A DNA stretch of 64,000 nucleotides from Henricia sp. BOLD:AAB3569. Its lineage: Eukaryota; Echinodermata; Asteroidea; Spinulosida; Echinasteridae. Under the pieces are notes generated by a model. That model searched no databases and was not told the DNA's origin. It saw only the letters and a list, made by a program, of their open reading frames with translations. The stretch's first letter is position 1. Every line of letters begins with the position of its first letter. The position numbers and the translations under genes are program-made. Positions 240 through 59,879 of the stretch are shown one piece after another. The DNA is taken from the NCBI GenBank assembly GCA_037783545.1, contig JBBELK010000635.1, forward strand, positions 310,001 through 374,000, read 5' to 3'.

Positions 240-835
240 AACAGCGGTGGTGGCGGCGACGGCGGCGGCAGTGGCGGCGCAAAGAGCAGCTACAGCAGCG
301 GCAAGAGCAGCTACAGCAGAAGTAACAGCGGCAAGAACAGTGGCAGCAGCGACCGCAGCAGGAGCAGGAGCAGGTACGGCAGCGGCAAGTGCAACGAAAG
401 CAGCAGCGGCAAGAACAGTGGCAGCAGCGACGGCGGCAGCGACCGCAGCAGCAGCAGCAAGATCAGGTACGACAGCGGCAAGAGCAGCGAAAGCAGCGGC
501 AAGAGCAGCTACAGCAGAAGCAGCAGCGGCAAGAACAGTGGCAGCAGCGACGGCGGCAGCGACTGCAGCAGCAGCAGCAAGAGCAGGTACGGCAGCGGCA
601 AGAGCAGCGAAAGCAGCGGCAAGAGTAGCGACAGCGGCAGCGACAGAAGTGGCAAGAGCATCATCAGCAACAGCAACTACAGCAGCAACATCAGCAACAG
701 CAACATAAGCAGCAACTACAGCAGTAGCAGCAACTACAGCAGTAGCAGCAGCAGCAGCTGCATCGACAGCGGCAGAACCAAACGCAGATGAATAAAAAAA
801 ACAGCAGGCATCAGCAGAATAATTATCAGCAGCAG
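240..835. repeat. compound CAG/GGC-type trinucleotide repeat
   Basis: About 600 bases of interrupted AGC/GGC/AAC triplets, ending near a polyA-like run. Within it a higher-order unit recurs: the word aagaacagtggcagcagcga starts at 411 and at 531 (120 bases apart), with a related copy near 331. Because the period is a multiple of three, all + frames stay open; one gives Ser/Gly-rich, another Ala-rich and another Gln/Arg-rich translation, and the minus strand is Leu-rich. No splice border, signal peptide or domain favours a frame. A low-complexity exon is possible but not shown. Confidence 0.85.
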
Positions 836-3792: not shown

Positions 3793-4024
3793 ATTGAAGG
3801 TATACGTATGATAGGATTGACAATTTGAGATGAATTTTAGAAACATGAGAACATTGCAGTGACCCGACTGGGATTCGAACCCAGGTCCTTGGAATACAAG
3901 GCCAACTGCTCTACCAAATGAGCTATCTGGGCATCCCGCCGGAGCCTCACAACAATCTTGTGCTTGCCACTCGTGTTTCTAAAATTCATCTCCAATTGTT
4001 AATCATATCATATATACCTTCAAT
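3793..4024 (-). mobile_element. tRNA-derived element enclosed by long terminal inverted repeats
   Basis: On the minus strand this holds a tRNA-like body (about 3862-3936) with an A-box-like tagctcatttgg (complement of 3914-3925) and a B-box ggttcgaatcc (complement of 3871-3881). Unlike an ordinary SINE it is bounded by matching inverted ends. The left end from 3793 (attgaaggtat) through gagatgaattttagaaac pairs with the right end through gtttctaaaattcatctc up to 4024 (accttcaat), about 50-57 bases each. The tRNA-like part is unlikely to be functional: the body is repeated in the next feature and diverges at several positions. Confidence 0.7.
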
Positions 4025-7779: not shown

Positions 7780-8328
7780 TTTCACAGTCCGTGCGTTTTG
7801 GGTGTGGCACCTCGAAAATATATATAGTTTTTTTAAATTGATAATTTTCTAGAAACATAAAAGTTACTCGCTTTCAAATGAGACATCAACGAAAAAATCG
7901 ACCAACGTTTACTGTCAATATTTCAAATTATTGGCGGTCCGCCAATAATTCAAGGCGTAGACTTGCCCAAGTTTGACCTCCCGCTCGGTATGCAATGCGC
8001 AGCGCACAGTGCGCCCTCCGGACCTGTCCAATCTGTTTTCTTCTGTTTCCTCTGTCTCAGAAAGTCTTCGAGACAGAAAAAAAGAGAACTGACAGGCCAC
8101 CAGTCCAGTGGACGCGTTGCACGCACCACACCACAGACCAAACACGGGAAGTCAGACCTGGGCAAGTCTAGGCAAGGCGCAAAAACGGCCGAAAAAACGG
8201 CGTTTTTCACAGGATTGCCGATGTCTAAAATACAAAGTATGATGTTTTGTCGTTAAAGTAAATGTTTTAGAAATTCGTTCGGAGATAAAAATCAAATTTG
8301 CTGAGAACCACGGACTGTATATCTTTAA
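7780..8328. mobile_element. TTAA-type inverted-repeat element, copy 1 (left end degraded)
   Basis: The right end reads ccacggactgtatatcttta and closes with TTAA at 8325-8328. The interior is an imperfect palindrome: gacttgcccaagtttgacct near 7960 pairs with agacctgggcaagtct near 8151, and a tctgttt/agacag core lies at 8030-8075. A full-length relative in opposite orientation lies at 21498-22070. Frames open on both strands here are by-products of the palindrome. It is non-autonomous and possibly piggyBac-like, judged by TTAA only. Confidence 0.7.
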
Positions 8329-10484: not shown

Positions 10485-11430
10485 TTAATTCTTGTTTATG
10501 CATTGCATGCACCGGAAGCGTAGACCTTTTGGCAAGCGCCATGTTTACATCTATGCTGACGATGTACAGTTATTCTTGACTTTCAATCCTACACTGCCAG
10601 GCGATGCAGTCTGTGCTCTATTTCGACATTCGCAGTGTGTCAAAGATCTTTAAGCCTGGATGGTCTCTAACAAACTAATGATGAACTTGGACAAGACATC
10701 ATTTGTCATTGCCTCTTCTCATCTCCTGCTCATTTCAAGTCTCTCCGTCATCTCACTTTCCACCTCAACGATATTGAAATACTTCCGTCTCCCACTGTGA
10801 GAAATTTAGGCGCTGTTTTTGACCATAATATGAACATGTCTGGTTATGTTACTCAACTCTATCATTCCCTAAATTGGCACATTCGCAACCTCAGACGATT
10901 TCTTGATTTCCATGTAGACTATTGCAGTTGCCTACTCAATAACATTTCCAAGACTGAAATATCCCGCCTGCAAAAACTTCAAAACAGATGTGCCAGGCTT
11001 ATCTTCCAAAAATCTACACACACAAATACATCTCCTCTGCTTAGAGAACTTCACTGGCTTCCAGTCGACCGACGTATTTTATTAGTCCACACCTTTAGAT
11101 CACTTAATAACTCAGCACCAGACTATCTCTCTTTTCTTCTGAACATCCAGACTCATTCATATTCCCTCCGCTCTTCTGATGCTGCTACACTGGTTGTCCC
11201 TCAGCCACGTAAAAAGGCTGAGGACAGGGCTTTTTCTGTTGCTGCTTCCGCCTCTGGAGTCATCTACCCCATTACATCAGGAACTCAGACAGGCTTTCAT
11301 CATTCAAATCTGCTCTAATTAGAAAAAAATATTCCCTCATCTTCTTTTCTTTTTCTTTATGTAAACGCCTTGCATACTCATTTTCAGACGCTATATAAGT
11401 ACAGTTATTATTATTATTATTATTAGGCTA
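10485..11430 (+). pseudogene. decayed non-LTR retrotransposon (LINE) reverse transcriptase fragment
   Basis: The + strand encodes the end of a LINE reverse transcriptase: a catalytic YADD-type motif (VYIYADDVQLFL) near 10540, the SNKLMMNLDKT segment near 10670, then RNLGAVFDHNMNM from 10800, SRLQKLQNRCARLIF near 10960, and the LLRELHWLPVDRRI..NNSAPDYL block typical of CR1/L2-type elements. It is broken: a stop follows SQCVKDL, the frame shifts near 10730, the usual stretch before DYC..LL is shortened near 10910, and the frame shifts again near 11250. The 3' end has an (ATT)n tail at about 11408-11427, as in L2/CR1-like families. It has no function now. Confidence 0.9.
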
Positions 11431-20425: not shown

Positions 20426-20908
20426 TAGTTCAAGTAGCTGTACATTTCAGGGATTCTATCGGAAAAAAAACACGCGTTCTACGACTCTTCATCTCGCGGC
20501 TCTGACTTTTAAACTGTCAGAGGAAAGCAACTGAAAGGAATAAATATTTGTACAATTGTTTTGTCACTTAGAGGAGAAAGCAAACAAGTTTAAAATTATT
20601 TAAAAAGTTACATTTTGATAAATCTAAATACTAAGACAAAATATTTAAATCGACACCAATAATAAATTATCACTGATAGATGTAGTATTTTCAAATTCAT
20701 ACCACGGAAGTGACCAAGCATACAATGACAGCACGGGTTGTTATTGTGTAGCTTTCCTATGGGAACATTAATGACAAAATCCACCATATAAAAACCAAAC
20801 ACCAAATTTAAGTTCCAAATATTAAGTCATACAGATCCTGCTAAGATTTAAGATTTTGGCGTCCCGGTAAAGTTTTGTTTCCTTAATCTTATGATTCTTC
20901 TTTTACAG

Positions 20909-23440
20909 GTTACACCTAGGTCCATAACACTGTGCCGAAGAAAACATGTCGACCAAAACGTTACTGCTTGTTGTATGCCTATTCTACACGATGCTCCTCG
21001 TCACGGCGTTACCACTCGACTACCCGTCAGACGCTAACAACCCCTTTCTGAGGCGTCTACGCTCCACGGATGATAACCCACGTAAGATAGCAAAAATACA
21101 CTGTTTTCGCGACCACAAAAAAAAAACATGTTACTGACGTGGTTACTGGGTCAACCAATCGTTGTCTTCGGTTGTCGACGACCAAAACTGGCCATTGGTT
21201 GTAACCGCAGTCGCGTCAGAAGCAGGTTTGTGGCTGTGATCGGGGAAAAAAACTTTCAACACATCCTGTCCCGATTTGGTCATTGCAGTTTGGTTTAACC
21301 CATAGTACAAAAGGGCAGAGGGCACGGTGTTGCTGCCCCTTTTGCACACATTGGCGGCCATGTTAGAGGACAGGTATTTCACAAAACGCCTATGCATGAC
21401 GCACGGCGAGAATGGGTTGCCTCCTTAGAGGGTACATGTCACCATATAAAAGTCTGTACTTCAGTTGAGTTTACAATCGAGTTCACTATACATGTATTTA
21501 AAGATATACAGTCCGTGGTTTTCAGTAATTTGATTTTTTTTCTCCGAAGGAATTTTTAAAGCATTTACTTTATTTTAACGACAATACTTTGTATTTTAGA
21601 CATCGGCAACCCTGTGAAAAACGTCATTTTTACACAGCCGTTTTTGCGCCTTGCCTAGACTTGCCCATGTCTGACTTCCCGTGTTTGGTCTGTGGTGCGG
21701 TGCGTGCAGCGCACCCTCTGGACTGGTGGCCTGTCAAATCTCTTTTCTCTTCTGTGACTTCCTGAGTCAGATGAAACAGAATAATACAGATTGGACAGGC
21801 CACCGGTCCGAAGGGCGCACTGAGCACTGCGCGTTGCAAACTGAGCACGAGAGATCAGACTTGGGCAAGTCCACGACTTCAATTATTGACGAACCGCCAA
21901 TGATTCGAAATATTGACAGTAACTGTTCGATAACTAAACATTGGTGGATTTTTTTTCGTTGATGTCTCATTTGAAAGCGATTAACTTATGTTTCTGGACG
22001 ATTACCAATTCAAAAAACGTTTTATTTTTCTCGGTGTCACACTCAAATAGCATGGACTGCATATCTTTAACTCTATGGCCGCGAACTAAATGGCTAGGAC
22101 TTGACATTACACACGAGCAAATGGTGCAAGCACCAGGTACCCATTAACGACTGGGTGGCCGGGGCCAGCTACACAAGCAGACGTTGGTGGCGATGTACAG
22201 CTAAGTTTTCCGGACCAATGGAAAAGCCTGCGACTGCTTCGAGGTTCGAGCTCACGACCCTCCGATTGCAAGCCCGACGCTCTACCGCTGCGTCACAGTG
22301 CTGTACAGCATAATTGCCCATAGACTCGTGTAATGGTAGCTTTCCCAGCTGATTAGTCAAAAGTGATCTACCTTGATATCCACCACAGTACGTATAAAGA
22401 TGAGGTGAGGTTAATCTAGCTATTTTGACACATTATTATCTTATTTCGTTTTGCAGTTTGCGATTACAGGGGTCTGAAATGTATCTGTAACGGACAAGAG
22501 AAACCTACAACATGTGGACTCTTCTATTACAATCCAAGGTAGGTTAATACATGTATGGACGCCATCTTGTGTCAACTTACGAAGTCATATCCTGTCCTCA
22601 ACCCCTCCAAATCTCCACCCCATCCCAACCCTTTTAACACCCAATCCTCACCTCCACCCCTTTCTTTATATTTTTTTGTTCTTTGTTTAATTGTACCAAA
22701 AAGTAAAAGTAATGTCTTCGGTTGTTTTACTTCAATCTGACAAAGAGGATACATATATTTGTCAGCATGACAGCCAGCCCCGTGCTGTCGTTTTACGCAT
22801 GTGCATTTGGGAGTAATATGCAACAAACGCAAAGTTACGAAAGTAACCGAACGGGCAAACCGAACGAGATTTTGCCGAACATGGGAAAATTTAACTTTTG
22901 CCGATCCGAATCGAACCCGAACTTGCCATCTTTGTTACAGTCTATGGCAAATGAGGCAAGAAGTTTTAATTAAGGATGCGGATTTATTGTGAAAAACGCA
23001 GGGGATAGGCCTATACCTTCGCTGCATGACAGTTTATTCTGTGTGGAGCCACTGTCAACCAAACATTTCAATTGTGACCAGGCATTTCAATTGTGTGAGC
23101 ACGTTCGATCAAGCGACTATAGTTGACTATAATCGAATAGAGTCCCTCGAACGATTGGTAATTTCCGTTGTTCGAGGGAGTCTAGTCGACTAAGTGAGCT
23201 ATAGTCGCTTGATCGAACTTGCTCATTAATGTCTCCGCCATGTTAAAATGTTTTAAATGTATTAAAATACATTCTCTTCTACTTCTTTTATTTTTTCCAG
23301 GTGGAATATTTAATGAGACTACCTTTATTTGTGGATATGGTGCAGCTTTCATTTGGCTCATGAGGGACACGCAACCACAGCAGACTGGGAATCTTCCAAA
23401 GATTTTGTGTTAAATTTTGTGTTAAATTAAAAGACTAGCC
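20909..23440 (+). CDS. secreted cysteine-rich peptide gene A (spliced, candidate)
   Basis: Exon 1 follows acceptor tcttttacag (ends 20908), with ATG at 20946 and donor C|GTAAG at 21081. It gives 45 residues: a signal peptide (TLLLVVCLFYTMLLVTA) and a propeptide containing FLRRLR, a likely processing site. Exon 2 (22457-22538, acceptor gttttgcag, donor AAG|GTAGGT) adds a short tail with cysteines at 47, 54, 56 and 65 (C-X6-C-X-C-X8-C), ending LFYYNPR. Exon 3 (from 23301, acceptor ttttttccag) adds WNI and a stop at 23311-23313, for 76 residues in all. An ATTAAA poly(A) signal sits at 23426-23431. Read-through of exon 2 would stop right after NPR. The tail spacing closely matches the exon at 34505. 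Likely role: secreted defence, signalling or venom-type peptide. No family recognised; no transcript evidence. Confidence 0.55.
21498..22070. mobile_element. TTAA-type inverted-repeat element, copy 2, in gene A intron 1
   Basis: It is bounded by TTAA at both ends (21498-21501 and 22067-22070), with matching inverted ends (aagatatacagtccgtgg and catggactgcatatctt). The interior is an imperfect palindrome (gacttgcccatgtctgac against agatcagacttgggcaagtc). It is the inverted relative of 7780-8328. No transposase is encoded. It lies wholly inside the proposed intron and does not interrupt the exons. Confidence 0.8.
22150..22320 (-). mobile_element. tRNA-derived SINE fragment in gene A intron 1
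   Basis: The minus strand carries a tRNA-like body: an A-box-like gcagcggtagagcg, the internal gggcttgcaatcgga, and a B-box-like gtgagctcgaacctc (complement of about 22240-22255). The stems are imperfect, which argues for a SINE head and not a working tRNA gene. Confidence 0.55.
23102..23219. repeat. near-perfect 118-bp hairpin in gene A intron 2
   Basis: The ends gttcgatcaagcgactatag and ctatagtcgcttgatcgaac are exact reverse complements. A second inner pair (agtccctcgaac..gttcgagggagtct) lies inside. No coding frame. It could be a fold-back element or a precursor-like hairpin in the intron transcript. Confidence 0.75.
23301..23413 (+). CDS. alternative terminal exon of gene A (exon-2-skipping form)
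   Basis: If exon 1 of gene A (phase 1 donor) is joined directly to the acceptor at 23300, a different frame of exon 3 stays open for 37 codons and ends at TAA 23411-23413, 12 bases before the ATTAAA signal. This gives an 82-residue precursor whose tail starts GIFNETTFICGYGAAF and ends in Leu-Cys. It carries only two cysteines. The phase fits, but an open run of this length could be chance, so this is a hypothesis for an alternative isoform. Confidence 0.25.
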
Positions 23441-24160
23441 TTTTCGTTCAGGGTTTAAAATGTTTACGTAGACGTTACTTAATCGCGAACTGAATATGGG
23501 GTTTACTTAAAATATGTATCCTAATTGTCAATCCTAATAGTCCGATTTTTGTAAAAACAAAAATGTAAGTTTACTTATATAAACTCCTAAAAAAAGTTCG
23601 GAAAGTCAAGTTTGACTGACGATTTCTTTCTTGTTACTAAATCATTTCCCTTGAATTTGGTATCATTGGAAAGCCCTGTTATTCCTAGTCGACCAATATT
23701 GTAATAAGGGCCATCTACATTCGCCATGAAGATTATATACCTCATGTGTAGATTCCTGTCATCTGATTGGTTAAAAGTGGGGGCATTGAATTAGCTAGAC
23801 TCTTCGCATACAGAATTTTGACTGTGCGCCGGGCGCGCATAGTCTTTGCCATGCCATTGGGCGTAGTTATTTAGCAGGTTCCGGACGCGTGCATCGCGTG
23901 TGCAGCATAGCTGTGCACCAACTGTACAGCTACGTGCCTCATGTAAACATTAATCAGGCCGGTAATGGCGGAAACGTTTTGGCGGAGTCGTTTGATAAAG
24001 TACTACACTGAACTACAGTGAAAACAGTGTCAGGTGAAATGTGCCACCAAAGTGTCAGGTGATTATGCTACCAATATTTTGCTGTAAATACCAACCAAAA
24101 TTCGCCGTAGACGATCTTTCGAAATCGAAACTCGATGGGCTATACTGTCAATGACTATGT
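23441..24160. other. stretch without a recognised gene
   Basis: AT-rich sequence downstream of gene A. A CpG-richer patch (23820-23960) has no donor or frame that I can support. Confidence 0.4.
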
Positions 24161-24169
24161 AACGTTACT

Positions 24170-24660
24170 TTTAACCGATCAGATGACAACAATCTAATAC
24201 ACATTAGGTGTATAAAACAAATATTGACTGCTGTTTATTCGGGTCACAGATTGTAGGCCCTCGGTGATCTCGAAACCATGACTATGTATACAGTTATGGC
24301 TTGGAGGTCACCTTGGGCCTACAATTTTAACCATGACCCTCATCGCAGTCAATATTTGTATACTATGTTCTAAATGGTATGTTATTTGTATCGCCGCTAT
24401 AGACTATTTCGATTACATCTAAACCATCCGTTTGAAAACTGCCTGTCGTTTTGCAAAACGTACCCTGATTGGCGTAAAGGTGGTTTGACAGATATACAGG
24501 GATACATCTGCCATAGGTGGACGTCACCCAGTGCACGAACTGTACGTTGTTTTGTTGGTAAATCAAGCAGTGCAAAATACACAACTTACTTGAAGTGATG
24601 AGAAGACCGTGCAACGGGCAAACAGCAAAACGTACAGTTCGTGCACTAGACGGCCCCTGT
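24170..24660. repeat. two adjacent fold-back repeats
   Basis: First pair: acaaatattgactg near 24217 against cagtcaatatttgt near 24346, with gattgtaggccc against gggcctacaatt inside. Second pair: gtgcacgaactgtacgttg near 24531 against aacgtacagttcgtgcac near 24630. Frames open here on both strands follow from the symmetry. Confidence 0.65.
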
Positions 24661-24733
24661 TATTATTGGTCATTACGCACACCACAAAACTTGCTGAGGG
24701 CGCTATATAGGCTACCTAATGGTACATAATGCT

Positions 24734-24962
24734 CATAGAGTTATATATAGAAAACTAGAGTGTGCATTGGCTACTCAAGTCACGTTTGTGGATCGTGCCG
24801 ATGTGGGCGGCGCCATGTTTGCTTAACGCTATATGAGTGCAAAGTGGGCAAAACGCTTTTGCCCACCGAGCACCCCATAGCGTTAAGCCAAAATGGCGGC
24901 GTCCATATCGGCACATCGTGTATTGGGAGTGCGCACTCTAGTTTTCTATATATAACTCTTTG
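24734..24962. mobile_element. fold-back MITE, copy 1
   Basis: The element is almost wholly palindromic. It starts catagagttatatatagaaa, ends tttctatatataactctttg, and has aacgctat / atagcgtt and ccgatgtgg / ccatatcgg pairs inside. The hexamer taatgc flanks both sides, perhaps a target-site duplication. A second copy lies at 40710-40912. Confidence 0.85.
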
Positions 24963-26700
24963 CTAATGCGACACTGTGTTGTGTTGAAATCAACTCAAGA
25001 ATCTTGTGTATGTCTCTAACGGGAGATAACATCATAATTGCGTATTACTAATTTGGATTCCCATATCTCCTAAATTTTCTAGTTTGTAAAAAGCAGAGCA
25101 GTCAATTGTAATAAAGTAAAATATCTGAAATCCATATCTCATTTTCCCAAATTCTTGAAGACGAAACAAACCTGCACGCAACTTTAAAATGGGAAATTAT
25201 ATTGTGTAAAGACTGTATAAAGACTACATTCTTAATTTAATGTTGTGGCTATTTTAACTTGAGATACAAAATTGCCGATATTTGAATTAGCATTCCTTCT
25301 TCATTACTTGTGAGGCCCGTTATTAGACTGCTGTGAAATTTAAATATACACAATGGACAATGCACTATATTTGTAATTGTTAAATATCGCCCTTTTGGTG
25401 CGGGGTTAACTTAAAGACTTGCAAACCTTTTTAAAATTCGGGCTCTACCATTTGTATATTCTGTGGAGCACGTGTGCTTCCAAATGGTACCTCAATTATT
25501 TTAGATAATGAACAAGCACAATGAATAAAGGGTAAAAGGTAATTAAATTTGTGGCCTCTGTATTTTGAGCTCTGCTTGCCACACGATGCAAATATGTGAA
25601 CGAGAGGCATTTCACTGGCGCCTATAGTGTTGGATTCGCCATAATATAGGTTTTCTCGTTTAGTTTTAACAAAGTACCTCTCACGTTCGTTTTAGATGCA
25701 TTAGTTTCAGCACAAATTTGAATGCAGTTTGGAATCATCCTTCAATTATTTAAAGAGCGCATTCAGTTTGGTTTTTCGAGCACGGAATCGGGAACATTCC
25801 TCGTATATCCTCACTCAAATTTAAAAATACGCACATGCAATTTTGACTACTCGTGCTCGTGCTAAATTGAATGAAGATTCAATGCTTTGTATTTGAATGA
25901 CGCAAATTCTAAATTGAATAACATGCAAATGAAGATGAACCAGAGAATTTGCGTCCTGATCAAAATCACTTGAATACATACTTCCACAAACGAAATCGAA
26001 TGCATTTCTGATGAATTCGAGCGAGAAAACCTATATTTGGAAAAATCAACAAAAATCCTGGAAAATTGTATTTAAAAATTGTATTAAAAAATCACAACGA
26101 AATAATGCTTTAAATGTACCTCAATTTACATAAGTTTAAGCAGATAACTGAAATCGGTTGCTGGAGAGCACCATTTATTTATTTATTTATTTGTTAAATT
26201 GCACTGTTGTATGCTTGTATTATGTGGATCAAATTATTTACCCTCGGCGCTATTAAAACAACAAAATAAAGTTACCCATGGAATTAAAACGGCAACTAAC
26301 CAGTACAGATTGATTGATTTATTAAAAGTATGTGTTGGTTTATAAACTACAGTCTTTAAAATGAGATTTATGCAAAACGAAAAACAAGGGAAAGCTATCA
26401 TATTAAAACGAAGGAATGTTATTTTGGGGACCATGGAGGACGTCATATACCACGTCTGAGGGCGCTCTTTGTGCATTACGTATGGTATACTACTGGGCCT
26501 TATGCCGTCTGAGCTATGAGGTACAGTGGTACACTCCCTTAGGTTTCCCTGAGAATCTAGCTGTTCTTGCATGGGGTACAACTAAAGCAAGGTAAGGACC
26601 GCATCAGTATTCGGTATGGTGCCTAATCACCAAGTTTCGGAATGAGGGAAAATCTTATGCCGGGGCCTCATCGGGACGGATGTATATAAAACTAATGTTT
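24963..26700. other. stretch without a recognised gene
   Basis: Between about 25560 and 26050 several words recur in both orientations (for example cgcaaattctaaattgaat, and cctatattt with ataggttttctcg), suggesting another large degenerate palindrome. A (TTTA)n run sits at about 26175-26192. No exon is supported. Confidence 0.4.
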
Positions 26701-26719
26701 ATTAACTATTTTTCCCGTA

Positions 26720-27015
26720 TTAGGACGACCGTTTTGGGTAGAGTGCTTACAGAGACCACTAAAACCACAAAATTGTCGGAAAGAAACTCATGAATTGACA
26801 CCCATTTTCTTGACCTAATTCTCTGAAAAAAAGTTTTGCGACCTAGACGAAAATGGTTTGTGACCTAATAAAAATGGTTAAGAACCTAATAAAAATCGTT
26901 TTTTTACCTAATAAAGATAGTTTTTGAAGCACTTGGCGTTAGGACGACCGGCTATCGGTCGCCTAATGCGGTCGGTCGTCCTAATACGCCGTTTTTACCC
27001 ATAACCGGTCGACCT
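26720..27015. mobile_element. dispersed repeat with GACCTAATAAAAATGGTT words, copy 3
   Basis: The left end has gtattaggacgaccgttttg and the right end has cggtcgtcctaatac, an exact inverted pair in the core. The middle carries at least four gacctaataaaaatggtt-like words (26840-26925). An extra ttaggacgaccg / cggtcgcctaa pair lies just inside the right end. Confidence 0.7.
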
Positions 27016-27479
27016 AAACGCGAAAGAGTAAGTTGTAAGGTTTCTCAGAGCAAAGAAATCATTGACATTGGTCATTCGGGCTCTTAGAACATGTTTCTAT
27101 CGCCCTTTGTTAGAGCTTGTTGAAGAAGCAGGCCAATAGCAGATTAGAACGTTTGTCACGTGAAGGCAGCAACCAACTGCAGTCGAGATATGCTGGAACA
27201 TGTTGGTTCGCGCGGTCGAGCACATCCATGCATGTACTGCCCAATAAGTTCCAATTTCATTGGTCCTTTAATTGTTGGCCAATAAATGTTGGCTCCTCAG
27301 TTAAACCTCAGCTCAATGGGGACTTTACACATCTAATGTGTCATTACACCGCCTAAAAAAAAGTCAGCTTAAGTAATTTTACGTTTGGGGAACAGTAACA
27401 TGTATCAAATTCCATTCCCAATGTAATGAAAACGGAGAGCGCCACCTGTGTTCGCAGTGTACTCACAACAGAGGGCGGT

Positions 27480-28260
27480 ATATGCGAAAAGCAAAGGCCA
27501 CTGATCATGTACGAGAATGGACCATCGATACACTGGATGAAGCAACGACGCCTAAAATTGAAGCCACCGTCCGCCATTGTACCCCACCAAATACAATGCC
27601 TTGCCTAGACTGGTCATACTGTCTTCACTAGTCTATATCATGGTCTATATGTGTTAAGTGGAATGCAAGCGATCGCGTGGACCGCGGAGCAGTCTAGGCT
27701 AAGCATTGTTCGTGGGGTACAATGGCAGCCAGCGCATGGCTTCAATTCTCGTAGAGCCAACTGCTATTGCATATACTTCATCAAGTGTATATACATGTAT
27801 TCGATGGAATGGACTGCATGAGCGAAGCAACCGTCCACGATCTTGTTTGAAACAAGATAATACCTTGCCATTAGGGTGGTGTTGTTGCAACGAATCATGC
27901 GATCCACCGAAACATGCAATTTTGACAAAACACAACTTTAATTAGTCAGCCTCGCACTGGTGTAAACATGTTGCAACGAATCATTCGGTCTTGAATCAAG
28001 ACTATGCTTTGTGGCTGACCAAATTGTGTTTTATCAAATTTGCATGTTTCGGTGGATTGCATGATTCGTTGCAACAGTTGTTTATACATGTATTACTTTC
28101 ACAAAGGTATACGTGTTACGTGGCCCAAACAAACGAGCCTGTGGACCGGGGACCAGTCAAAGGCGAAGCAATACTGTTTAGTGTAAGATGGCCGACGCAT
28201 TGCTTCAAATCTCGTTGCTTCAGGCTGCAACCAAGTAGATATGGCTCCCATAGGAACCAA
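27480..28260. repeat. compound fold-back region
   Basis: Two palindromes are nested side by side. Arm pair one: accccaccaaatacaatgcc..ctagactg (27580-27612) against cagtctaggctaagcattg..ggggtac (27689-27720), extending outward past attgaagcc / ggcttcaat. Arm pair two: gttgcaacgaatcatgc..atccaccgaaacatgc (27884-27920) against gcatgtttcggtggattgca..gttgcaac (28041-28075). The locus is non-coding; the small frames are side effects. Confidence 0.75.
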
Positions 28261-28269
28261 TGCTAAATG

Positions 28270-29530
28270 CCCAATTTTCGAAAATCATTTTAAAATGCAC
28301 ACAACTTTCTCAGCTTCGCAGGACAACAACCAAAATACTAATTAAAGTCTCATCTTTTCAATTCCGTTAAATTTTATGGGGGTAAGCCGTCACTTTTATT
28401 CCCTAATTTCCACTTGAAACAAAACTACCCCTGCAACAGTGAAAATTACCAAACAGACCAGCATCCATTTTGGAACAAAGGCACATACGCTAATGGGCAA
28501 AATAGGGCCACTTTTAGGAGCTACATTGTCCAAAATGTTTATAGTTGGAAGAAACAAAATACCCCACATCACGGCGATTACCATATTCTACACAAGACCA
28601 CATTCGTTCAGCTCGCAACTCTCTCTAATAAAGCAGAATTTGAGGGGGTACAAAATATTCATGATCTCGGCGCACGGATCTCTGCCTATTTACTTGGGTG
28701 CACCCTTCAATTCTTCAGCTTCCTATCCATTGTATAAGAGGTTAGTGGAACAACCGAATTATATTTTCGGTTGCGGCGGCGTGCGCCCTCTTTCAATGCA
28801 CTTTAGCCAATGAAAGCCCAGGCAAACTAGCTCCCGACCCAGCATGACGTCAAATGTCTACGTAAACAGCAATACTCATCTGCGGTGGACCGCAGGGGCT
28901 TTATCTGTAATCCAGTCTACTGGGAAAACGTGTGGACTAAGGACACGGTTTACTAGGAAACTTCACACCACGCATGATTTCTTTTAACAGACGAAAATAA
29001 TAAAACAATCTTTCGTCAGTCAGGATAACCTGACGTCATAGGCTCTGGTTTTCCTTCACTGAAAGGCGTTCTCTGTGCCCAGGAACAAATCAACCTAAAA
29101 ATCAATTTTTAATTAAATATTAATTGTCAATGAATACTTCTTTTTGTTTGTAGAAGTTTTCAGCCTTCCGATCAGTTGGAACATAATAATGGAAATTATG
29201 AAACTCTGACACCCCAAAACGTTTCAACAACTGCACTGATATTTTTTTAAATTACAAAACAGCAGGCCTAGTCACAAAAAAATTGCTTCTGAACAAGTCG
29301 GTAATTTAAAAATTAAAAATTAAAAAAAGTAAAACCAGCGGTGAATAATAACTGTATATAACTGTATAAGGCAATTTTGAAACCACTACTATTAATATGA
29401 CTAAGGTGTTTTATATTCCATAACACGATGAAATCTTCCTTGTTATGAATTAATCAGTAATTGAATACGTACAAATAGTTATTTAAACAGCTAGTATCCT
29501 CTCGTCCACATTTTTTAAGTTTTCATGTTT
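28270..29530. other. stretch without a recognised gene
   Basis: Overlapping + frames at 28414-28813 are open but show no domain or splice support. The rest is AT-rich. Confidence 0.4.
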
Positions 29531-29543
29531 ATCATGGAGGTGT

Positions 29544-30226
29544 ATGTGTCTACAACACCATCACAACTTGTTTTCCACAACAAAATCGACAGACTTTTGC
29601 TTAAAACGCAAAGCAGTTCCGACCCTCTTCATCCGAAATTCTGAAACGCTCGAGGTCACTTGGTTAGTTGATAAACAGGGTTTTGACGTCATCCTGAGAA
29701 GGACACAAAACGGCCTGTGCAGTATTGAATGGAAAATACACGAAGTGAGTGTTCATCATGCCTGTTTCGTCCTTGTAATTCAAAACACAAACGTGAAAAA
29801 CACTTCATGTAATATGACAACAATCTACTATTACCTGTAAAAAAACAGTGAAATTGTGGCTCACAATGAAGCTCTTTTGAAGTATATACTGGTGCATTGA
29901 GACGGGTGGTTTTGTCACGGTTCCTGCGGGCCGTAGTTCCCACGTGTTTGAACATCGGCCGGTACAAGTTAGAAAGAGCATGGAAAGAGCGACTCATTTT
30001 TCTCTCTCTTGGTAATAGAAAAGAAAATATTTCTGCTCTTTTTTGTTTCATGGTGTCTGGTAAAGCATACAACCACACAACTACTGGGCGCATCTCTGGT
30101 TTTTTACCATCGAACAGAGACGGTTTTCGGATTTTTTTGCGTGTAAACGTTTGGAACTGCCGACCGTGTTTATTCGTGTTTCTCAGGATTGCGTCACGGG
30201 GTCAGGCGCATATCATTAATACCTAA
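29544..30226. other. region with ATG-initiated frames on both strands, unsupported
   Basis: The + strand opens at ATG 29544 for 98 codons, and the minus strand at ATG (30093) for 134 codons down to 29689; neither shows a signal peptide, domain or known motif. The minus-strand product is basic, with several KR/RR pairs. Which strand, if either, is coding cannot be decided from sequence alone. Confidence 0.15.
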
Positions 30227-30698
30227 TGAGCGTTTTAGAAATCGCGAAAATTTCATTTTCGAAAACCGCACTTTTGCTTGCGATTTATCCACTTAAAACG
30301 GACAATTTGTAATAAACAGCGGTGTAAGTCGGCTGGAGGGATATGTCGACTATCGAAAAAGGTGCAAATGCTAGATTTTTCGTCAAGAGGGATTCTAGCT
30401 CTTTAAGGGCCAACAAAGTTTTTAAACGTTTTAATAAGTGAAAGATTTGTGTCTTTATTTTTATACGCAAACGATGACGTGCGCGATGTGGGCACGTGGT
30501 AGACTGCACTAAAACTGGGGAATCATAAAAGGGTATAAAAAAGGAAATTAGGGAATTCAACATTCAATAAATAAACAAATCAATCAATAACTAAACACCT
30601 GACTTAGGTACAGTTTGAAACAAAGACCGTAAACGACAGTGGTTGATACTCAAGTCATCAATTATATAATTATCGAATATTCATAGAAAGAACAGACA

Positions 30699-30878
30699 TA
30701 CACTGCAAAAACTGTGGTGTTAAACTAACACCAGTGGTATTGTCTTATATAGATGCCAATTAAGCCTGGTGTTAAGTTTTAATACCTAGGGTGTTAAAAA
30801 TAATACATTTATTTCAAGTGTGGAATTAAAACTAACACCTACGGTGTTAAATTGTAACACCGCCGTTTTTGCAGTGTA
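30699..30878. mobile_element. MITE with CACTGCAAAAA termini and TA duplication
   Basis: It begins cactgcaaaaactgtggtgt at 30701 and ends ccgttttt gcagtg at 30876, with TA on both sides (30699-30700 and 30877-30878). Several ggtgtta / taacacc pairs occur inside. A related end (actgcaaaaactcgggtgtta) occurs near 53247. It lies just upstream of the candidate first exon of gene B. Confidence 0.8.
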
Positions 30879-31039
30879 GGGACAAGTGGAATAGGATCAT
30901 AATATTTACAACACTGAACGGGAAAATAAAATCCAAAGTGTTCTTTTTTCCCACTGACGTAGCCTCATGAATATCAATATTCCCCTCGTGCAAACGGCCC
31001 GGGTAAATATCTGGCCAGAATTTAGGTAGCGCTAGGTGT

Positions 31040-31148
31040 AATCCCCGGCAAACACTCGGAGCTGCACACACAGACCCACGGTCTAGTGACAGGAGAACGA
31101 ATTCATACGGAGTTGGGCATAAAACCGGAAAACAAAATTCTGCAGAGT
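31040..31148 (+). other. candidate non-coding first exon of peptide gene B
   Basis: This ATG-free, GC-richer stretch ends at 31148 in AGAGT|GTAAGT, an excellent donor. The next acceptor with an open start codon is the signal-peptide exon at 31676, which gives a 527-base intron. The 5' limit is a guess; no strong TATA box is visible. Confidence 0.35.
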
Positions 31149-31675
31149 GTAAGTAAGAATGTTTTTCTCTGTGCACATATTTGATGTAGCGGAAATTTAA
31201 TAATTTAATTTAAGAACAAATGTAGACAAAGTTGTCTTGTATTATTCCTAAAATTAGGGGTCAAAAACTGTTTGGTGTCTCAGTAATATCAGACACTTTG
31301 TTCTTCAAAGGCGTTGGAAAAGTTCATTAAATTAAATCTGGACAATAGTATTCCTTTGTACAGATTTGGTGTAGTTATCAGCACAACATTTACAGAATCA
31401 AAAATTTAAAAAATGTAGACAAAGTCAATTGGTGGCCTACATCTGACACTTAAAGTTTTGAAAACGAATTGACTGGTTGCAGGAATTTTGGGGAATACTT
31501 GGTTAAAAATGATCTTGTCTCAAATAATTAACAATAATTTATTCATCAGAAACGGCAAATATACACAAATTGTGTGATATCGAATGCACTCTCTGGATTA
31601 ACTTGGTACACTGTTCTCATATACACCCTTTTAATTATTTATTTACTTTTTCTACTTTTTACATAACGTTTTCAG

Positions 31676-32493
31676 AAACCTATTCTATCGCCATGCGGTT
31701 AACAAGGACATTTGTGCTATGTACGCTACTGGCTTCAACACTCATCCATGCAATCTACTGCGAAGATATCACGGATAACATAGCAAGGAACGACAGAAGC
31801 TTAGCGGCGAGGCTTACAAGAGCTCCAGGTAAAGTGTTTAAACTTAAAGGCTACAACAAACGCTAAAATATATATAAAACCCCTGAAAGACCCCGTGGAC
31901 ACTTGTTTTCAATCACCTATATCTCAGTTATTTATGAAAAGTCATCAGGGCAAAACAAAACCCATAATTAACATTCAGTCTTCCCGACGCAAGCTAAATC
32001 AATTTCTGATTAATCGCGATCCCCGTTGCGAATGATTCGAACCATTCAACACCGGCTTGCTCGGTGGTCGAGTGGTTAAGACGTCTGCCTTGTTTGCAGC
32101 AGGTCGTGGGTTCGAGACCAATCCGAGCATGCTATGAAGTTGTTCACGGTGTCTCGGGAAAGCACCGAGTATACAGTATTAAGAATTACGTCGGGTAAGG
32201 GCAAAACAAACCCTAAGTAACATTCAGTCTCCCCAACGCAAGCTAAATCAATGTCTAAGTCATATCATGTTGCATACAGTGGAAAGCTTATTCATTGCCT
32301 TTCACAACGACACCACATTTTGTAACAGTCACTTGTTTTAGGGCTCAGCAACTCTTGTATAAATGTGGTTGGATCTCAAACAGAATGTGCCGTTACATAT
32401 GTTCAACAGAACAACAAACTTTCTGTCAGTAACAAGGAATACACAAGACATATTGGCAATTGTTTTTGTGCTGCTATCTCACAAAATGCATGA
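31676..32493 (+). CDS. secreted cysteine-rich peptide gene B (spliced, candidate)
   Basis: Exon 1 starts after a long pyrimidine tract and acceptor ttttcag (31675). ATG is at 31693 and the donor CCAG|GTAAAG follows 31828. The coding part is 136 bases, the same as gene A exon 1, with the same phase 1 end. It gives a signal peptide (MRLTR then TFVLCTLLASTLIHA) and an acidic then basic propeptide with several single-Arg sites. Exon 2 (32342-32493, acceptor acttgttttag) adds 50 residues with cysteines at 51, 61, 86 and 88 (C-X9-C-X24-C-X-C, ending NCFCAA) and stops at TGA 32491-32493. AATAAA lies at 32523-32528. The full precursor is 95 residues. The intron holds a SINE. Role unknown; secreted effector, neuropeptide or venom-type peptide are the options. 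Confidence 0.6.
31940..32265 (+). mobile_element. tRNA-derived SINE in gene B intron
   Basis: A tRNA-like head, cggtggtcgagtggttaaga, with B-box gtgggttcgagacc (about 32107-32120), sits between two direct repeats of gggcaaaacaaa..acattcagtc..gcaagctaaatca (31948-31998 and 32199-32250). The head resembles Ser/Leu-type tRNAs. Close relatives lie at 32795 and 43850. Confidence 0.7.
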
Positions 32494-32522
32494 TCATAAC
32501 AAATGGATATAATTGTAAGAGT

Positions 32523-32528
32523 AATAAA
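32523..32528 (+). terminator. AATAAA poly(A) signal of gene B
   Basis: A canonical hexamer 30 bases after the proposed stop codon; it supports exon 2 as the last exon of the 95-residue form. Confidence 0.6.
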
Positions 32529-32794
32529 CATGCTTTGTAACGGATACATTGCTAATAATATAGTAACAACAATCGACCTAACAAAGTTTTCTGAACTTTT
32601 TAAAGAGTTTAAACCGATTTTTAAAGTATGAAAGATGTACTTTCTGTGCTGCAAGGTCCGTTTTAGTTCGGAAGGTTTTCGATAAAAAATTATAGTTCTC
32701 GGTTTGCCCAAATTATTAGGTTTCGCATAAGATATTATTTCATTATTTAACAAGATATCAATCACCTGTTACATGTTTCGAGCAGGCCATTCGA

Positions 32795-32890
32795 CACCGG
32801 ATCGCTCGATGGTTGAGCGGTTAAATAGTCAGCTCTGGGAAAATCGTGGGTTCGAGTCCCACCCGAGCATGGTATTATATTGTACTCAAG
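32795..32890 (+). mobile_element. tRNA-derived SINE fragment
   Basis: It has an A-box-like gatggttgagcggttaa and B-box gtgggttcgagtccc (about 32848-32862), with the ending acccgagcatg as in the SINE at 31940. It lies downstream of gene B. Confidence 0.65.
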
Positions 32891-33372
32891 TAGTATAAAA
32901 GAAAGTAACACACGGTGTACAAAATGTTGCACAAGATTTGCATGACTCAAAAAGTGATTGTGGTTTTTAATTTTTTAAAATGTACTGTGATAAAACATAA
33001 CTTCTGTTTGCAAGGATTAGTCTAATCAGATAAAAATTAAATTTCAGCCAAGCGTTTTAAAAATAATTTATTTTCAATATATATAGTTATCTTTTCTTAC
33101 TAAATACACCAACACAGACAAATATATATTTCCCACATTGATGGATATGACAAAATATGCAGTCACATACTGTTCTGCCTAAGGCGACCTGTCGTGCACC
33201 TGTAATGCAGTCTTGTCAAATTTGAAAATAAAGCGATCCTATATTATATTATGATCTTTATTCGACGCTGCCTATCTCTTGACAGTGGTAGTAATTATAT
33301 TTGTTTTGAATGATTGTGTGATTCAAAGGATTTCACAAATGTCAATGACTAGACGTTCTGCTTCAACCATGC

Positions 33373-33740
33373 TTAAAGGTAGTATACATGATTGGTAAAC
33401 TGTTTAAAACGGCGTGATTTCCACTGGTAATTGAAAGCTTATGAGGTCGAGAAAACTACCTTTTAGAAATTTCAGTCACATAGATGCAGTAATACTCTGG
33501 AAAACCTGAAATATCCAAGCATGGTTTTAATGCATGAATGAATGGCTCCAAAAAATCGCCTACAGGCGATCTTCGGAGATTTAAATAGTTTTGTAATTTT
33601 TCTCATGAATGGGGGCACTTTAGACGAAATATTATAATTTCACAGGATGATTACCACCATTACCATCTTGTTAAGTAAGCTTTTAGATAATAAATCAGAC
33701 TTTTTGGAGGGCAATTGCCAAATATGTAGACTACCTTTAA
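33373..33740. mobile_element. TTAA element with AAAGGTAGTATACAT ends
   Basis: TTAA at 33373-33376 and 33737-33740. Left end aaggtagtatacatgattgg, right end ccaaatatgtagactacctt. It shares its ends with the elements at 48571-49096 and 45733-46216. Non-autonomous. Confidence 0.8.
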
Positions 33741-34110
33741 GTACGCTTTCTGAAAAAGATTACAACTTGCTTTATTCGTTGCAGAAAGAGGTACTCGTGT
33801 TTTGATATTGTGTGACATTCAGATTTTGGAGTGAAATAAAGTCACGGTTGCCGAATAGAAAATATGAAATTATCGAAGTTACATTTTTTGCATATTCTTT
33901 CTTTGAGTAAAAACGAAACAATATTCTTTCAATAATAATATGGTACATGTATTGATAGCTCGTGTGTTGTCTCCAACTGTTTGATTTTTAAAAAATATGT
34001 TTTTAATTTATTTTCTTATGGAATTTGGAATATACAGTTGCATAACAATGCAAAACTATGTATTGGTCATCTTCTATGTGGATATGTTTGCTATCATAAT
34101 ATTTCATATT

Positions 34111-34464
34111 TTAAAGGCCCATTGTATCATCTGCAATGACCCAATGTTTTTTTCATGAGTTGACAAGAAAAACCAAAGTGTTGATAGCAATGGTAACAAA
34201 CACCACGTGAATTTATTTCCGTCTAAAATATTTAATGCTTGAAATTGACAACCGAATGTGCTTTTCTAAAAAAAACAATACCATCTACTTGTACACAAAA
34301 TCCATATATAGATTTTCAAGGTTTTCTGAAGCATGCACTGATGCATATAAGTAGCTAAAAAAAAATTCAGGCTAGTTTACCAACATTCTTCCGTAGATAT
34401 GTTAAACTCTTTTTCCACGAATCTGTAAACAGTTTTATCCTGCAAATGAACATAGGGCCTTTAA
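34111..34464. mobile_element. TTAA element just upstream of the tail exon at 34505
   Basis: TTAA at 34111-34114 and 34461-34464, with ends aaaggccca..and..agggccttt. Internal words (agttgacaagaaaaacc, accac.tgaatttatttc) are shared with the element at 61679-62045. The element ends 40 bases before the acceptor of the exon at 34505, so the pyrimidine tract there lies outside it. Confidence 0.75.
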
Positions 34465-34504
34465 ACGTTCATATTACATTATTTGATATTGTCTTTTCTT
34501 ACAG

Positions 34505-34641
34505 ATACACTGAAAGTATGTTTCATATCCTCGAGCTTAGTTTGTTTCTGCGGCAAGCGAGCGAAACTACAGGCGTGCTACAATCCCAAGGATTTGAAAT
34601 ACGTGCACGAGAGACCGCCATTTTTCAGAGGTATTTTCTGA
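34505..34641 (+). CDS. orphan or alternative cysteine-rich tail exon (C)
   Basis: After acceptor tgtcttttcttacag (ends 34504) a phase-1 frame encodes 45 residues and stops at TGA 34639-34641. It begins TLKVCFISSSLVCFCGKR and carries a CYNPK motif. Its spacing C-X7-C-X-C-X8-C is nearly that of gene A (C-X6-C-X-C-X8-C), and the DNA word tacaatcc(c)aagg is shared at the YNP position. I find no leader exon between 32.5 and 34.5 kb. Joining to gene B exon 1 keeps frame and gives a 90-residue precursor, so it may be an alternative last exon of gene B, or a third gene that has lost its leader. No AATAAA is close downstream. Confidence 0.45.
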
Positions 34642-36425
34642 TTATTCCACGACTGCAACATTTTAAGCCAATAATTATTGGACTTTGCAAAACCAATCAA
34701 AAACAAAACAAATTATTACCAAAAAAAGAAATTGTGAAGTTCCTAAATAGTGCAGACATGTCTTGGTATATTAGTTTTGATTTTGAAAGAAAAATCGTAA
34801 TAATTGCTCAACAACGTAGGGAGACTACACTTTTTCATGTTTTTTTTAAACATTCGTGAACATAAAACTTTGTTAACGTACGTATACGTTGATTTCTAAA
34901 TGTCAAACAGTTCAAGTACTACAATCAATAATCCGAGGAATGTTTTATATGAACGCGTGTGAATATGTTTTTGTTTAAAATTAAATGTTCAAAAGCCAAT
35001 TTTCTGTTTGTCCCGAAAATTAATTTAAATATTTTAACGGCTCGATAAATGGGGCGAATACTAAGGCTATATAGGACCCTGCGACAAACGCATCATGACG
35101 CGCAAAGAAAAGGGTAATTTCACTTGACGATTTTCTCTATGTAATGTGGTTAGAACAGGTTGTTTTACACAATTTACAAAAACCTCTCTTGGAATTTGTG
35201 TCTCATGGGAGTGCGCGTAGGCCTTTCCGTGTGAAAACGCGCGCAGCCACCCGTGAAAATTATGCACGTTCGCACAGCCGAACACGAGAACCACTCGAGA
35301 AAACGCGCGAAATGTGCACGTCCGCCAAAACAAACCGGCCGGCCGTGTTGGGAATAATTTTCTCCCCTCCAAAAGCAAACTGAAATATTCTTAGGTTTCT
35401 GTTTTGTATTGACACCAGGGGAGGGGTGAGTAATTGATCTCCACAATGCGAAGTGGAACCACCCAAGTACTTCAATTCTAACATGAATGGCAAATTATAC
35501 AGTGGCCCACTCCTCATTTGTGTTTCGACCGTGTATTTTCTCGGTTACGCCACAGGTCGAGCCTGTTGACTCTTAACTGGAAAATGATCCACCCGTGTCA
35601 ACTACAGAAAGGTCGAATCGGCTGTTTGTTAATCCCCCGAGACCAAGTTCTGTTTTTTGAGCGCCCGATTAAAGTTGCGAAGAGTAAATTCATTAACGGT
35701 GGTTTCCTATTTTCTGAAATCCCCGCCTTTTTGTGATAAAGTACTTTCACTGAGACGCAAGCGCAGTAATTGCACTTTAAAGTCACGTTGTGGGTAGATG
35801 ACCGTATATCCGAGACGTGGCTATTTTTCTCACAGATAACCATTTATTATCGTTAACATTTTACCCAATTTGTGCATCTGTGCTAATTATTCAATTAACT
35901 TATCGTGCCTTCTTTGTGAACACCAATTCTGCATGACAGAGTGGCTTAAAATTGTATCAGTGATAATTATAAAGTTTATAACTCACGAGTTAATATCAGT
36001 CAAAAACTATATTTGCTATGAGATATCAACGCATATTTAGTATTTTAGTATTTATTTCATTTTCCGGGATATACACTTACACAGAACTACAGATATACAC
36101 AGAACTACAGACAGATAATGAACATAATAAATAATAAAGGAAAAACAAAACCAAACCAAAAAAATAGAAAGTCAAAAATCAAAACTGCAAATTAACATAA
36201 AAAACAAAAACAACATCCAATTAGCTCCCGCAGGATTGCCCAAAAGAAACTAGTTTCTGTCAGGGGGCTCTCCAAACTGATTGGATAATAACACAACTAT
36301 TTTAACATGGAATATAATTTATAGTTTGCAAGCGAACTCGACACTGACAACAAAATTCACAAATACGATATACAAATATTTTCTAAATATTGAATATCTT
36401 GTGTATTCATATTATCCTATCATTT
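34642..36425. other. stretch without a recognised gene
   Basis: A CpG-rich patch at 35180-35350 is open on both strands, but I recognise no domain or donor. Repeated acacagaactacagat words lie at about 36078-36110. Nothing else is supported. Confidence 0.4.
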
Positions 36426-45732: not shown

Positions 45733-46216
45733 TAAAGTTAGAAAACATCATTAACTTACACAATATAAACATGATGACGGTATAGTAAACTTCCCCTGAA
45801 ATGGTTTTTTCTGAAGTGCTATTATTGTGTTTGAGAAATGAGCAAAACAATTATTTTTCGTCTCGCGAGACGTAAATTCATTTCGCCCCAAAACCACCTC
45901 GCCCTGGACCACTTCGCCCTGACCCAAAGGCCATTTCGCCCTAAAACCACTTCGTCCAAAGACTATACCTCGCCCAAATGCCACTTCGCCCCAAAGCAAC
46001 TATGTGCACAGGCCGTGGTTCAGGGCGCCTGGCGAAGTGGTTCAGGGCGAAATGGTTTTGGGACGAAGTGACTGTAGACCAGTTTTTGACTATTTTCTCA
46101 AAACTTAGACGAAGTACGGAGCTGATTTTTGCTCATGTTCGTTTTAATCATCCTTCAATCACACAGCGGGGTTAAAGTATTTGTAACGGTTTACCAATCA
46201 TGTATACTGCCTTTAA
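45733..46216. mobile_element. TTAA element carrying an array of AAGTGGTTTTGGGGCGAA-like words, copy 1
   Basis: The right end ccaatcatgtatactgcctt closes with TTAA (46213-46216); the left end is less clear (TTAA 45733). The interior (about 45880-46075) is a run of roughly 16-20-base degenerate words such as ccacttcgccctgaaccatt, inverting around a tgtgcacaggcc centre. The flanking tcgtctcgcgagacg and cttagacgaagtacggagct are shared with the copy at 48571. Confidence 0.75.
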
Positions 46217-48570: not shown

Positions 48571-49096
48571 TATAAAGATAGTATACATGATTGGTAATTT
48601 GTTACAAATAGTTTTATCCCCTTGTGTGATTGAAGATATGCATGATTAAAACCAACCTGAGCAAAAACCAGCTCCGTACTTCGTCTAACTTTTGAGAAAA
48701 CAGTCAAAAAAGGGTTTGCAGTAATTTCGCCCCAAAACCACTTCGCCCTCAACCATTTCTCCCTGAACCATGGCCTGTGCACGAAGTGGTTTTAGGGTGA
48801 AGTGGCATTTGGGCGATGTAGTGTTTGGACGAAGTAATTTAGGGCGAAATGGCACTCGGGCGAAGTGGTTTGGGGCGAAATGGCACTTGGGCGAAACGGT
48901 TTTGGGGCAAATTGAATTTTCGTCTCACGAGACGAAAACTAATTGTTTTACTCATTTCTCAAAGACTATAGCACTTCAGACAAAACCATTTCATGGGAAA
49001 TTTTCTACGGTCATCATGTTTATATTGTGCAAGTTAAGCGTAAATCTGTGAACATTTCTGATTTTCGAGATTACCAATGATGTATACTGCCTTTAA
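48571..49096. mobile_element. TTAA element carrying an array of AAGTGGTTTTGGGGCGAA-like words, copy 2
   Basis: Left end aaagatagtatacatgattgg, right end ccaatgatgtatactgccttta, with TTAA at 49093-49096. The array at about 48722-48915 has at least ten words of the gaagtggttttggggcg / ttcgccccaaaaccactt type, inverting around ggcctgtgcac. The element is in opposite orientation to 45733-46216; outside the array the two copies are clearly homologous. Confidence 0.85.
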
Positions 49097-59430: not shown

Positions 59431-59433
59431 ACT

Positions 59434-59877
59434 AGACGCAATATTTGAAAACGTTAAGTTTTTCTAACGGCAGGTGACAGACCATACATCGTTAAATATT
59501 TTACAAAAATCCAAATTTTTCTGATTTTCTTGAACTGTTACGCACTCTAGAATTGACAAATTTAAAATAGAAATGACGTCAAATTTAAAATACCAACATT
59601 TTTCGGTGATGAAATGGGGGAGTTCTACTGTTATGGTTCCTAAACGAGAAAATATAGACGCAATATTTGAAAACGTTAAGTTTTTCTAACGGCAGGTGAC
59701 AGACCGTACATCGTTAAATATTTTACAAAAATCCAAATTTTTCTGATTTTCTTGAACCGTTACGCACTCTAGAATTGACAAATTTAAAATAGAAATGACG
59801 TCAAATTTAAAATACCAACATTTTTCGGTGATGAAATGGGGGAGTTCTACTGTTATAGTTCCTAAACGAGAAAATAT
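59434..59877. repeat. perfectly phased tandem duplication, 222-bp unit
   Basis: agacgcaatatttgaaaacg begins at 59434 and again at 59656. The two 222-base copies differ at only a few positions (for example ccatac/ccgtac, aactgtt/aaccgtt, atggtt/atagtt). The near identity implies a recent duplication. Non-coding. Confidence 0.95.
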
Positions 59878-59879
59878 AT

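Follow-up and report, generated by a model that had tools for sequence, protein, structure and literature searches.

Two same-strand genes for putative secreted four-cysteine peptides in the starfish Henricia sp.

The stretch of DNA analysed here (the window, 64,000 nucleotides of Henricia sp.) carries two genes on the plus strand, gene A and gene B+C, each of which joins a leader exon to a downstream tail exon encoding four cysteines (Table 1). As originally predicted, they have the organisation of secreted cysteine-rich peptide genes built from phase-1 leader and tail exons, and homologues support two such genes. Both leader exons, which start 10,747 bases apart, contain exactly 136 coding bases and finish in phase 1, at GTAAG and GTAAA donors, respectively. 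They follow a common plan, with an N-terminus that is hydrophobic by eye and R-x-x-R sites.

Table 1. Exons and candidate features of the two genes (window positions; P0001, P0002 and P0003 are the homologues described in the text)
Feature	Position	Strand	Evidence and remarks
Candidate acceptor of non-coding first exon, upstream of gene A ATG	20885..20908	+	TTCTTCTTTTACAG, read from sequence; predicted
Gene A leader exon, coding part	20946..21081	+	136 bases = 45 codons + 1 base; ORF, GTAAG donor, P0001 alignment
Gene A second exon	22457..22538	+	TTTTGCAG acceptor, AG/GTAGGT donor; P0001 alignment
Gene A third exon, coding part	23301..23313	+	TTTTTTCCAG acceptor; (R)WNI then stop TAA; P0001 has same final residues
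Candidate acceptor of non-coding first exon, upstream of gene B ATG	31640..31675	+	pyrimidine-rich, ends TTTTCAG; predicted
Gene B+C leader exon, coding part	31693..31828	+	136 bases = 45 codons + 1 base; P0002 and P0003 matches
Candidate alternative tail after leader B	32342..32493	+	open in phase 1; four cysteines including CFC; unsupported
Gene B+C tail exon, ending in stop codon TGA	34505..34641	+	TTCTTACAG acceptor; 33/43 aligned residues identical in P0002

The leader of gene A encodes its hydrophobic N-terminus (by eye), a short propeptide and an R-R-L-R site, and the second exon, with cysteines spaced C-x6-C-x-C-x8-C, ends in phase 2. P0001, a homologue of 75 residues, aligned to spliced gene A from end to end across both junctions (E 6e-30, 72% identity, 100% coverage). 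The public contig from which it comes, at 1206 bases, could not accommodate introns of 1375 and 762 bases, so P0001 counts as evidence for the splicing of gene A. The 21081-22457 junction of the original model was thus borne out, whereas the short third coding exon had been overlooked. Identity to P0001 is 33/39 (85%) in the leader up to the cleavage site and 22/36 (61%) in the mature part, whose predicted length is 37 residues in gene A and 36 in P0001.

In gene B+C, the hydrophobic N-terminus (by eye) of the leader is accompanied by an acidic stretch and two sites, R-N-D-R and R-L-T-R, and the predicted mature peptide has 47 or 55 residues, depending on which site is cut. The tail carries four cysteines in the arrangement C-x7-C-x-C-x8-C-YNPK. 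The spliced product matched P0002, the Asterias rubens 'uncharacterized protein' LOC117306380, with an E value of 2e-34, 69% identity and 98% coverage, and P0002 spans the 31828-34505 junction. Judged by this alignment, gene B+C is similar to the LOC117306380-type starfish peptide over the full length of the precursor, leader and tail. The two have the leader, an R-x-x-R site and the four-cysteine tail in common, but P0002 is 88 rather than 90 residues long, ends at -RG and is without the second site, R-L-T-R. Homologues with the same cysteine spacing were found for A (P0001) and for B+C (P0002); the alignments show the exon structures and the cysteine frame, and each homologue retains an R-x-x-R site. 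The expectation of a divergent mature peptide held for gene A, where the mature part is less conserved than the leader, but not for gene B+C, with 28/45 identical residues (62%) in the leader and 77% identity in the tail. A further homologue, P0003, is identical to leader B at 37 of 45 residues. We rejected its tail as a fourth kind: the residues past the leader (S-G-TVSSL) align with read-through of the window's donor (P-G-KVFKL), and look like unspliced sequence past the donor.

Three phase-1 tails with C-X-C had been proposed. All three are open and carry the motif, and homologues support those at 22457 and 34505 but not the one at 32342, for which no homologue was seen in our searches, including a wider alignment-based one in which P0001, P0002 and P0003 were the only homologues among 86 candidates. 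Both strands of the window hold 13 comparable phase-1 CXC tails, including 34505 and 32342; with only the supported 34505 omitted and 32342 retained (12 per 128 kb of strand), chance alone would place about 0.25 such tails in the B+C intron of 2,676 bases. Leader B could nevertheless be spliced alternatively to 32342 or 34505 and give two unrelated four-cysteine peptides from a single gene, much as the calcitonin gene yields calcitonin or CGRP. The candidate exon, with its open phase-1 frame and four cysteines, is followed by AATAAA at 32523, as such a scheme would have it. However, the chance expectation and the homologue searches argue against it, as does the tail of P0003, which follows the same leader, is unlike the 32342 tail (score 17, shuffle mean 21) and looks like read-through. 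We consider alternative splicing very unlikely and did not accept 32342 as an established exon. The broader idea, with leader B as a switchable secretion module that has terminal exons 32342 and 34505 for two unrelated four-cysteine peptides, beside a paralogue A with a third, is most improbable. As to the predicted cluster, two tandem genes were confirmed but no further copies in the window: tblastn of the exons and homologues against it gave nothing convincing among the best five matches per query, the best non-self match being that of tail C to 35624-35731 (E 0.041), with an in-frame stop.

Common to both tails is the frame C-x6/7-C-x-C-x8-C-(x0-4)-YNP[K/R], and across four tails, the window's two and those of their homologues, the cysteines, YNP and a single Lys do not vary. 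Between A and C, it is the tails that are alike rather than the leaders. Tail A against tail C scored 36, reached by 11 of 2000 shuffles (mean 20.0, sd 4.2), and the homologues' tails scored 37 (13 of 2000). The leaders are hardly alike, as originally noted; their score was reached by 112 of 2000 shuffles, so that relatedness is not demonstrable from them. Their equal length looks partly coincidental, since the P0001 alignment has a one-residue gap at the leader end and leaders A and B are not clearly above shuffles. When the cysteines were held fixed, the tail score was reached by 269 of 5000 shuffles for the window's tails and 286 of 5000 for the homologues', and hhalign gave probabilities of 11% and 3.4% for A against C; the paralogy of A and C therefore rests mostly on cysteine spacing. 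The bare pattern C-x5-9-C-x-C-x6-12-C is not rare: outside a CAG-type array at 268-786 it has 4 matches in the window, the two genes included, and 20 Markov-resampled windows contained 2.05 on average.

With similar tails and leaders that are not clearly so, genes A and B+C are plausibly tandem paralogues. They might instead be unrelated secreted peptide genes, adjacent by chance, that converged on the C-X-C frame. The leader comparison, the marginal similarity of the tails beyond their cysteines and the low hhalign probabilities would all suit convergence; the common strand, leader-exon plan and cysteine frame, the YNP past the last cysteine in four tails, and a tail similarity so seldom reached by shuffles would not. 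We regard convergence as rather unlikely.

Family and structure searches placed neither gene. With an E limit of 1, none of the three spliced precursors matched a Pfam family. A six-frame Pfam scan of 14.0-44.0 kb, divided at 29.0 kb, gave only a sub-threshold POL3_N match (E 0.038), while one plus-strand frame of 1-9 kb had no match and one plus-strand frame of 9-14 kb had RVT_1 below its cut-off. Searched by sequence against the PDB, tail A gave one chance match (E 8.2), tail C none, and P0003 only cullin matches (E 0.34-0.43). The four-tail profile found no chain at E up to 10 in a copy that may be without 8V2M/8V2U, and the bare cysteine frames, probably too poor in information as queries, found none. 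The two structure models, with pLDDT values of 62 and 65, give the mature part three or four short strands but are too weak a basis for comparison with disulfide-directed beta-hairpins, in which disulfides I-III and II-IV surround the hairpin. In Foldseek they had 21 and 275 matches with an E limit of 10 and none with a limit of 0.001. A literature motif search with peptide pieces and the locus name returned nothing related, judged by title.

We give about even credence to the view that the two same-strand genes encode small peptides of starfish coelomic fluid that are secreted, cut by a convertase and closed by two disulfides, and that serve defence or injury response. The predicted signal peptide would be removed first, and a furin-type convertase would then cut, in gene A at R-[RS]-L-R and in gene B+C at R-[ND]-[DG]-R. 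The peptide would oxidise to a compact beta-hairpin with two disulfides from its four cysteines, and coelomocytes or coelomic epithelium would release it for an extracellular role in host defence or injury response. Predicted net charge is +5 or +7 for B+C, by cleavage site, and +3 for the homologue of A; the mature peptide of A is predicted to be neutral, which counts against the defence-peptide view. The cationic B+C peptide could hit microbes directly, and that of A could act on host cells. The pro-stretch of B has a net charge of -2, and that of A has two Asp yet is +1 including the cleavage Arg.

The strong conservation of the B+C tail (KYVHERPPFFRG) is unlike that of a purely membrane-acting, fast-changing peptide and also counts against the defence-peptide view, as do the lack of R-L-T-R in P0002 and the weak structure models. 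In receptor ligands the tail is usually better conserved than the leader, and both genes could encode neuropeptides or hormones with receptor action rather than defence peptides. The R-x-x-R sites would fit, and P0002 ends in -FRG, a possible amidation donor; in the window, however, IF comes after the final G, so amidation is not conserved. The precursors match no Pfam family, and in a neuropeptide survey of A. rubens the words 'four cysteine', in the 12 of 47 places listed, concern only orexin, relaxin and IGF types (PMC4772807). We regard a neuropeptide or hormone role as rather unlikely.

Starfish have remarkable powers of healing and regeneration. The exon structure, with a short third exon in A that is easily missed, and the C-x6/7-C-x-C-x8-C-YNP frame offer a handle for finding further members, and the gene models and frame can also serve proteomics of injured animals and peptide synthesis. 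Several injury-raised coelomic-fluid proteins of starfish are uncharacterised, according to excerpts of PMC11891777. Since PpCrAMP was called the only known sea-star antimicrobial peptide in the excerpted part of a 2025 review (PMC11767717), two further candidates with gene models are useful.

Among known starfish peptides, the excerpts of PMC11891777 describe CHUPA (CHU1-3) and KARTESH (KASH1-2), which respond to injury in A. rubens by a rise in the coelomic fluid and have a signal, an acidic region, convertase sites and a four-cysteine mature part; KASH2 is a two-disulfide beta-hairpin (PDB 8V2M/8V2U). Compared by description, genes A and B+C may follow this plan: they have four cysteines, R-x-x-R sites and a signal judged by eye, and the pro-stretch is net acidic in B but not in A. 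The predicted mature peptide of gene A (37) would fall within the 35-48 residues of CHUPA, as would that of B+C with cleavage at R-L-T-R (47) but not at 55 residues, whereas the 28-30 of KARTESH are not matched by A, P0001 (36) or B+C at the predicted sites. PpCrAMP, a cysteine-rich antimicrobial peptide from the coelomic epithelium of Patiria pectinifera, has a predicted beta-hairpin (excerpts of PMC11767717, PMC9656538 and PMC12466427; unnamed in that of PMC6891385). Antibacterial activity is reported for it. By description, genes A and B+C would likewise give cysteine-rich starfish peptides with a predicted beta-hairpin, and they may resemble PpCrAMP.

The original prediction had placed two leader exons and three phase-1 tails carrying C-X-C in the window, and both leaders were found at those positions. 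All three tails are open in phase 1, with four cysteines and a C-X-C in each. Outside the CAG-type array, the cysteine/C-X-C pattern has four matches in the window, two of which are genes A and B+C, whereas 20 Markov-resampled windows averaged 2.05. Taken alone, this pattern is weak evidence. The AGC-rich array yields long artefactual frames rich in cysteine or serine.

The three coding exons of gene A encode a precursor of 76 residues ending in RWNI. In a protein-collection search (2 candidates), the sole protein returned was P0001, which matched over the full length with 72% identity (E 6e-30). P0001 has 75 residues, ends in PRWNI as in gene A, and is encoded on a contig of 1206 bases; since this cannot hold introns of 1375 and 762 bases, as the exon coordinates give for the window, the contig is probably a spliced transcript. 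P0001 could be orthologous or paralogous. For spliced gene B+C, two proteins were returned from five candidates. P0002, 'uncharacterized protein LOC117306380 [Asterias rubens]', comes from a forcipulatid sea star (E 2e-34, 69% over 98%), which makes a starfish the likely source of the window. P0003 has the leader alone in common (37/45 identical), and its remaining residues align with read-through into the gene B+C intron, so that it would back leader B and its donor only. Both gene models are supported, gene A with three coding exons.

Features of the window and their coordinates
Feature	Position	Strand	Remark
Gene A, leader	20946-21081		136 coding bases (45 codons + 1 base); GT donor
Gene A, exon 2 (tail)	22457-22538		runs to donor at 22538
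Gene A, exon 3	23301-23313		acceptor ends at 23300
Gene B+C, leader B	31693-31828		136 coding bases (45 codons + 1 base); GT donor
Gene B+C, tail C	34505-34641		
Third tail	32342		in gene B+C intron
tRNA-Thr(TGT)-like sequences	32058-32130; 3859-3932	plus; minus	Rfam 46-49 bits; first in gene B+C intron
Degenerate copy	32787-32875		73% similar, downstream of 32058-32130; with it, suggests a tRNA-derived repeat
Hairpin-like repeat	21590-21880		gene A intron 1; ~290 bases, self-complementary with arms 70% alike; resembles a miniature inverted-repeat element
Second copy of hairpin-like repeat	7952-8234		inverse orientation, 83% identity
RVT_1 match	~10492-10710		E 0.00025, under its cut-off
ORF after RVT_1 match	10797-11318		by eye, resembles end of reverse transcriptase protein; 10492-11318 is a reverse transcriptase remnant
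222-base unit	59433-59878		two copies head-to-tail, 98% matches
Repeats of GGGCGAAATGG-type unit	45874-46070; 48723-48920	both orientations	short, diverged, ~3 kb apart
AGC-rich array	282-775		120-base unit repeated twice, 95% matches
CAG-type array	268-786		

The third tail found no support. On both strands together (128 kb of strand), 13 tails have a phase-1 acceptor with at least 9 pyrimidines in 15, stay open for 30-70 residues and carry a C-X-C and no fewer than four cysteines; they include the supported tail C and the third tail itself. With tail C left out, the other 12 predict ~0.25 chance tails in the 2,676-base intron. Close relatives sharing the third tail should surface, because leader B in the query should pull in same-leader proteins; two such searches, whose reach was limited to proteins sharing short exact words with the query, gave only P0002 and P0003 with that leader, and no homologue with the third tail.

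In an alignment of the tails of genes A and B+C, P0001 and P0002, only the four cysteines, a single lysine and Y-N-P do not vary. Tails A and C score 36 (shuffles: mean 20.0, sd 4.2; 11/2000 as high), and 13/2000 shuffles matched the score of the homologues' tails. When the cysteines were fixed during shuffling, 269/5000 (window tails) and 286/5000 (homologues' tails) equalled the score, and hhalign gave 11% probability (P 0.0027); hence kinship of A and C is plausible and draws mainly on cysteine spacing and gene plan. For full precursors, hhalign gave 3.4% (P 0.013), and the likeness of leaders A and B was equalled by 112/2000 shuffles of signal-like sequence. The leader length appears not to be fixed, given a one-residue gap at the leader end between gene A and P0001. 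The expected divergence of the mature peptide holds for gene A (22/36 aligned residues identical, versus 33/39 up to the cleavage site), but gene B+C shows the opposite pattern (tail 33/43 aligned, leader 28/45).

These precursors have a hydrophobic N-terminus and four cysteines in a constant frame, and each homologue retains an R-x-x-R site (RRLR/RSLR for gene A; RNDR/RDGR/RNDR for gene B and two relatives). The precursor would be secreted and cut by a convertase, and two disulfides would shape the peptide into a hairpin. The second site of gene B, RLTR, is missing from P0002, which counts against one clear cut site. Predicted mature net charges are 0 (A), +3 (P0001), +5 or +7 by cleavage site (B+C) and +5 (P0002). 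AlphaFold2 was run on P0001 by itself (pLDDT 62) and on an alignment of P0002 with P0001 and both window tails (pLDDT 65). The models show a helix at the N-terminus and, where the cysteines lie, three or four short strands; they are too weak to name a fold, and Foldseek matched them to nothing at E up to 0.001.

The precursors match no Pfam family, and a search of the available papers for the locus name LOC117306380 and five peptide motifs turned up two, neither with a related title. The A. rubens relative was already known in public databases, labelled uncharacterized. The leading reading, a role in defence or injury, has about an even chance of being right; it draws on the CHUPA and KARTESH peptides of A. 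rubens, which by their published description appear to share the plan and are both reported to rise in coelomic fluid after injury (PMC11891777). Its main rival is action on a receptor, which would account for the well-conserved tail of B+C. Synthetic KASH2, a KARTESH peptide, reportedly folds into a hairpin in which the disulfides pair I-III and II-IV, and human fibroblasts were not stimulated by it (PMC11891777). Cut at the predicted sites, the mature peptides of genes A and B+C differ in length from those of KARTESH. To judge by published descriptions, the two genes may belong with CHUPA or with PpCrAMP, an antimicrobial peptide of Patiria pectinifera. We rate both genes as belonging to the starfish four-cysteine secreted peptides.
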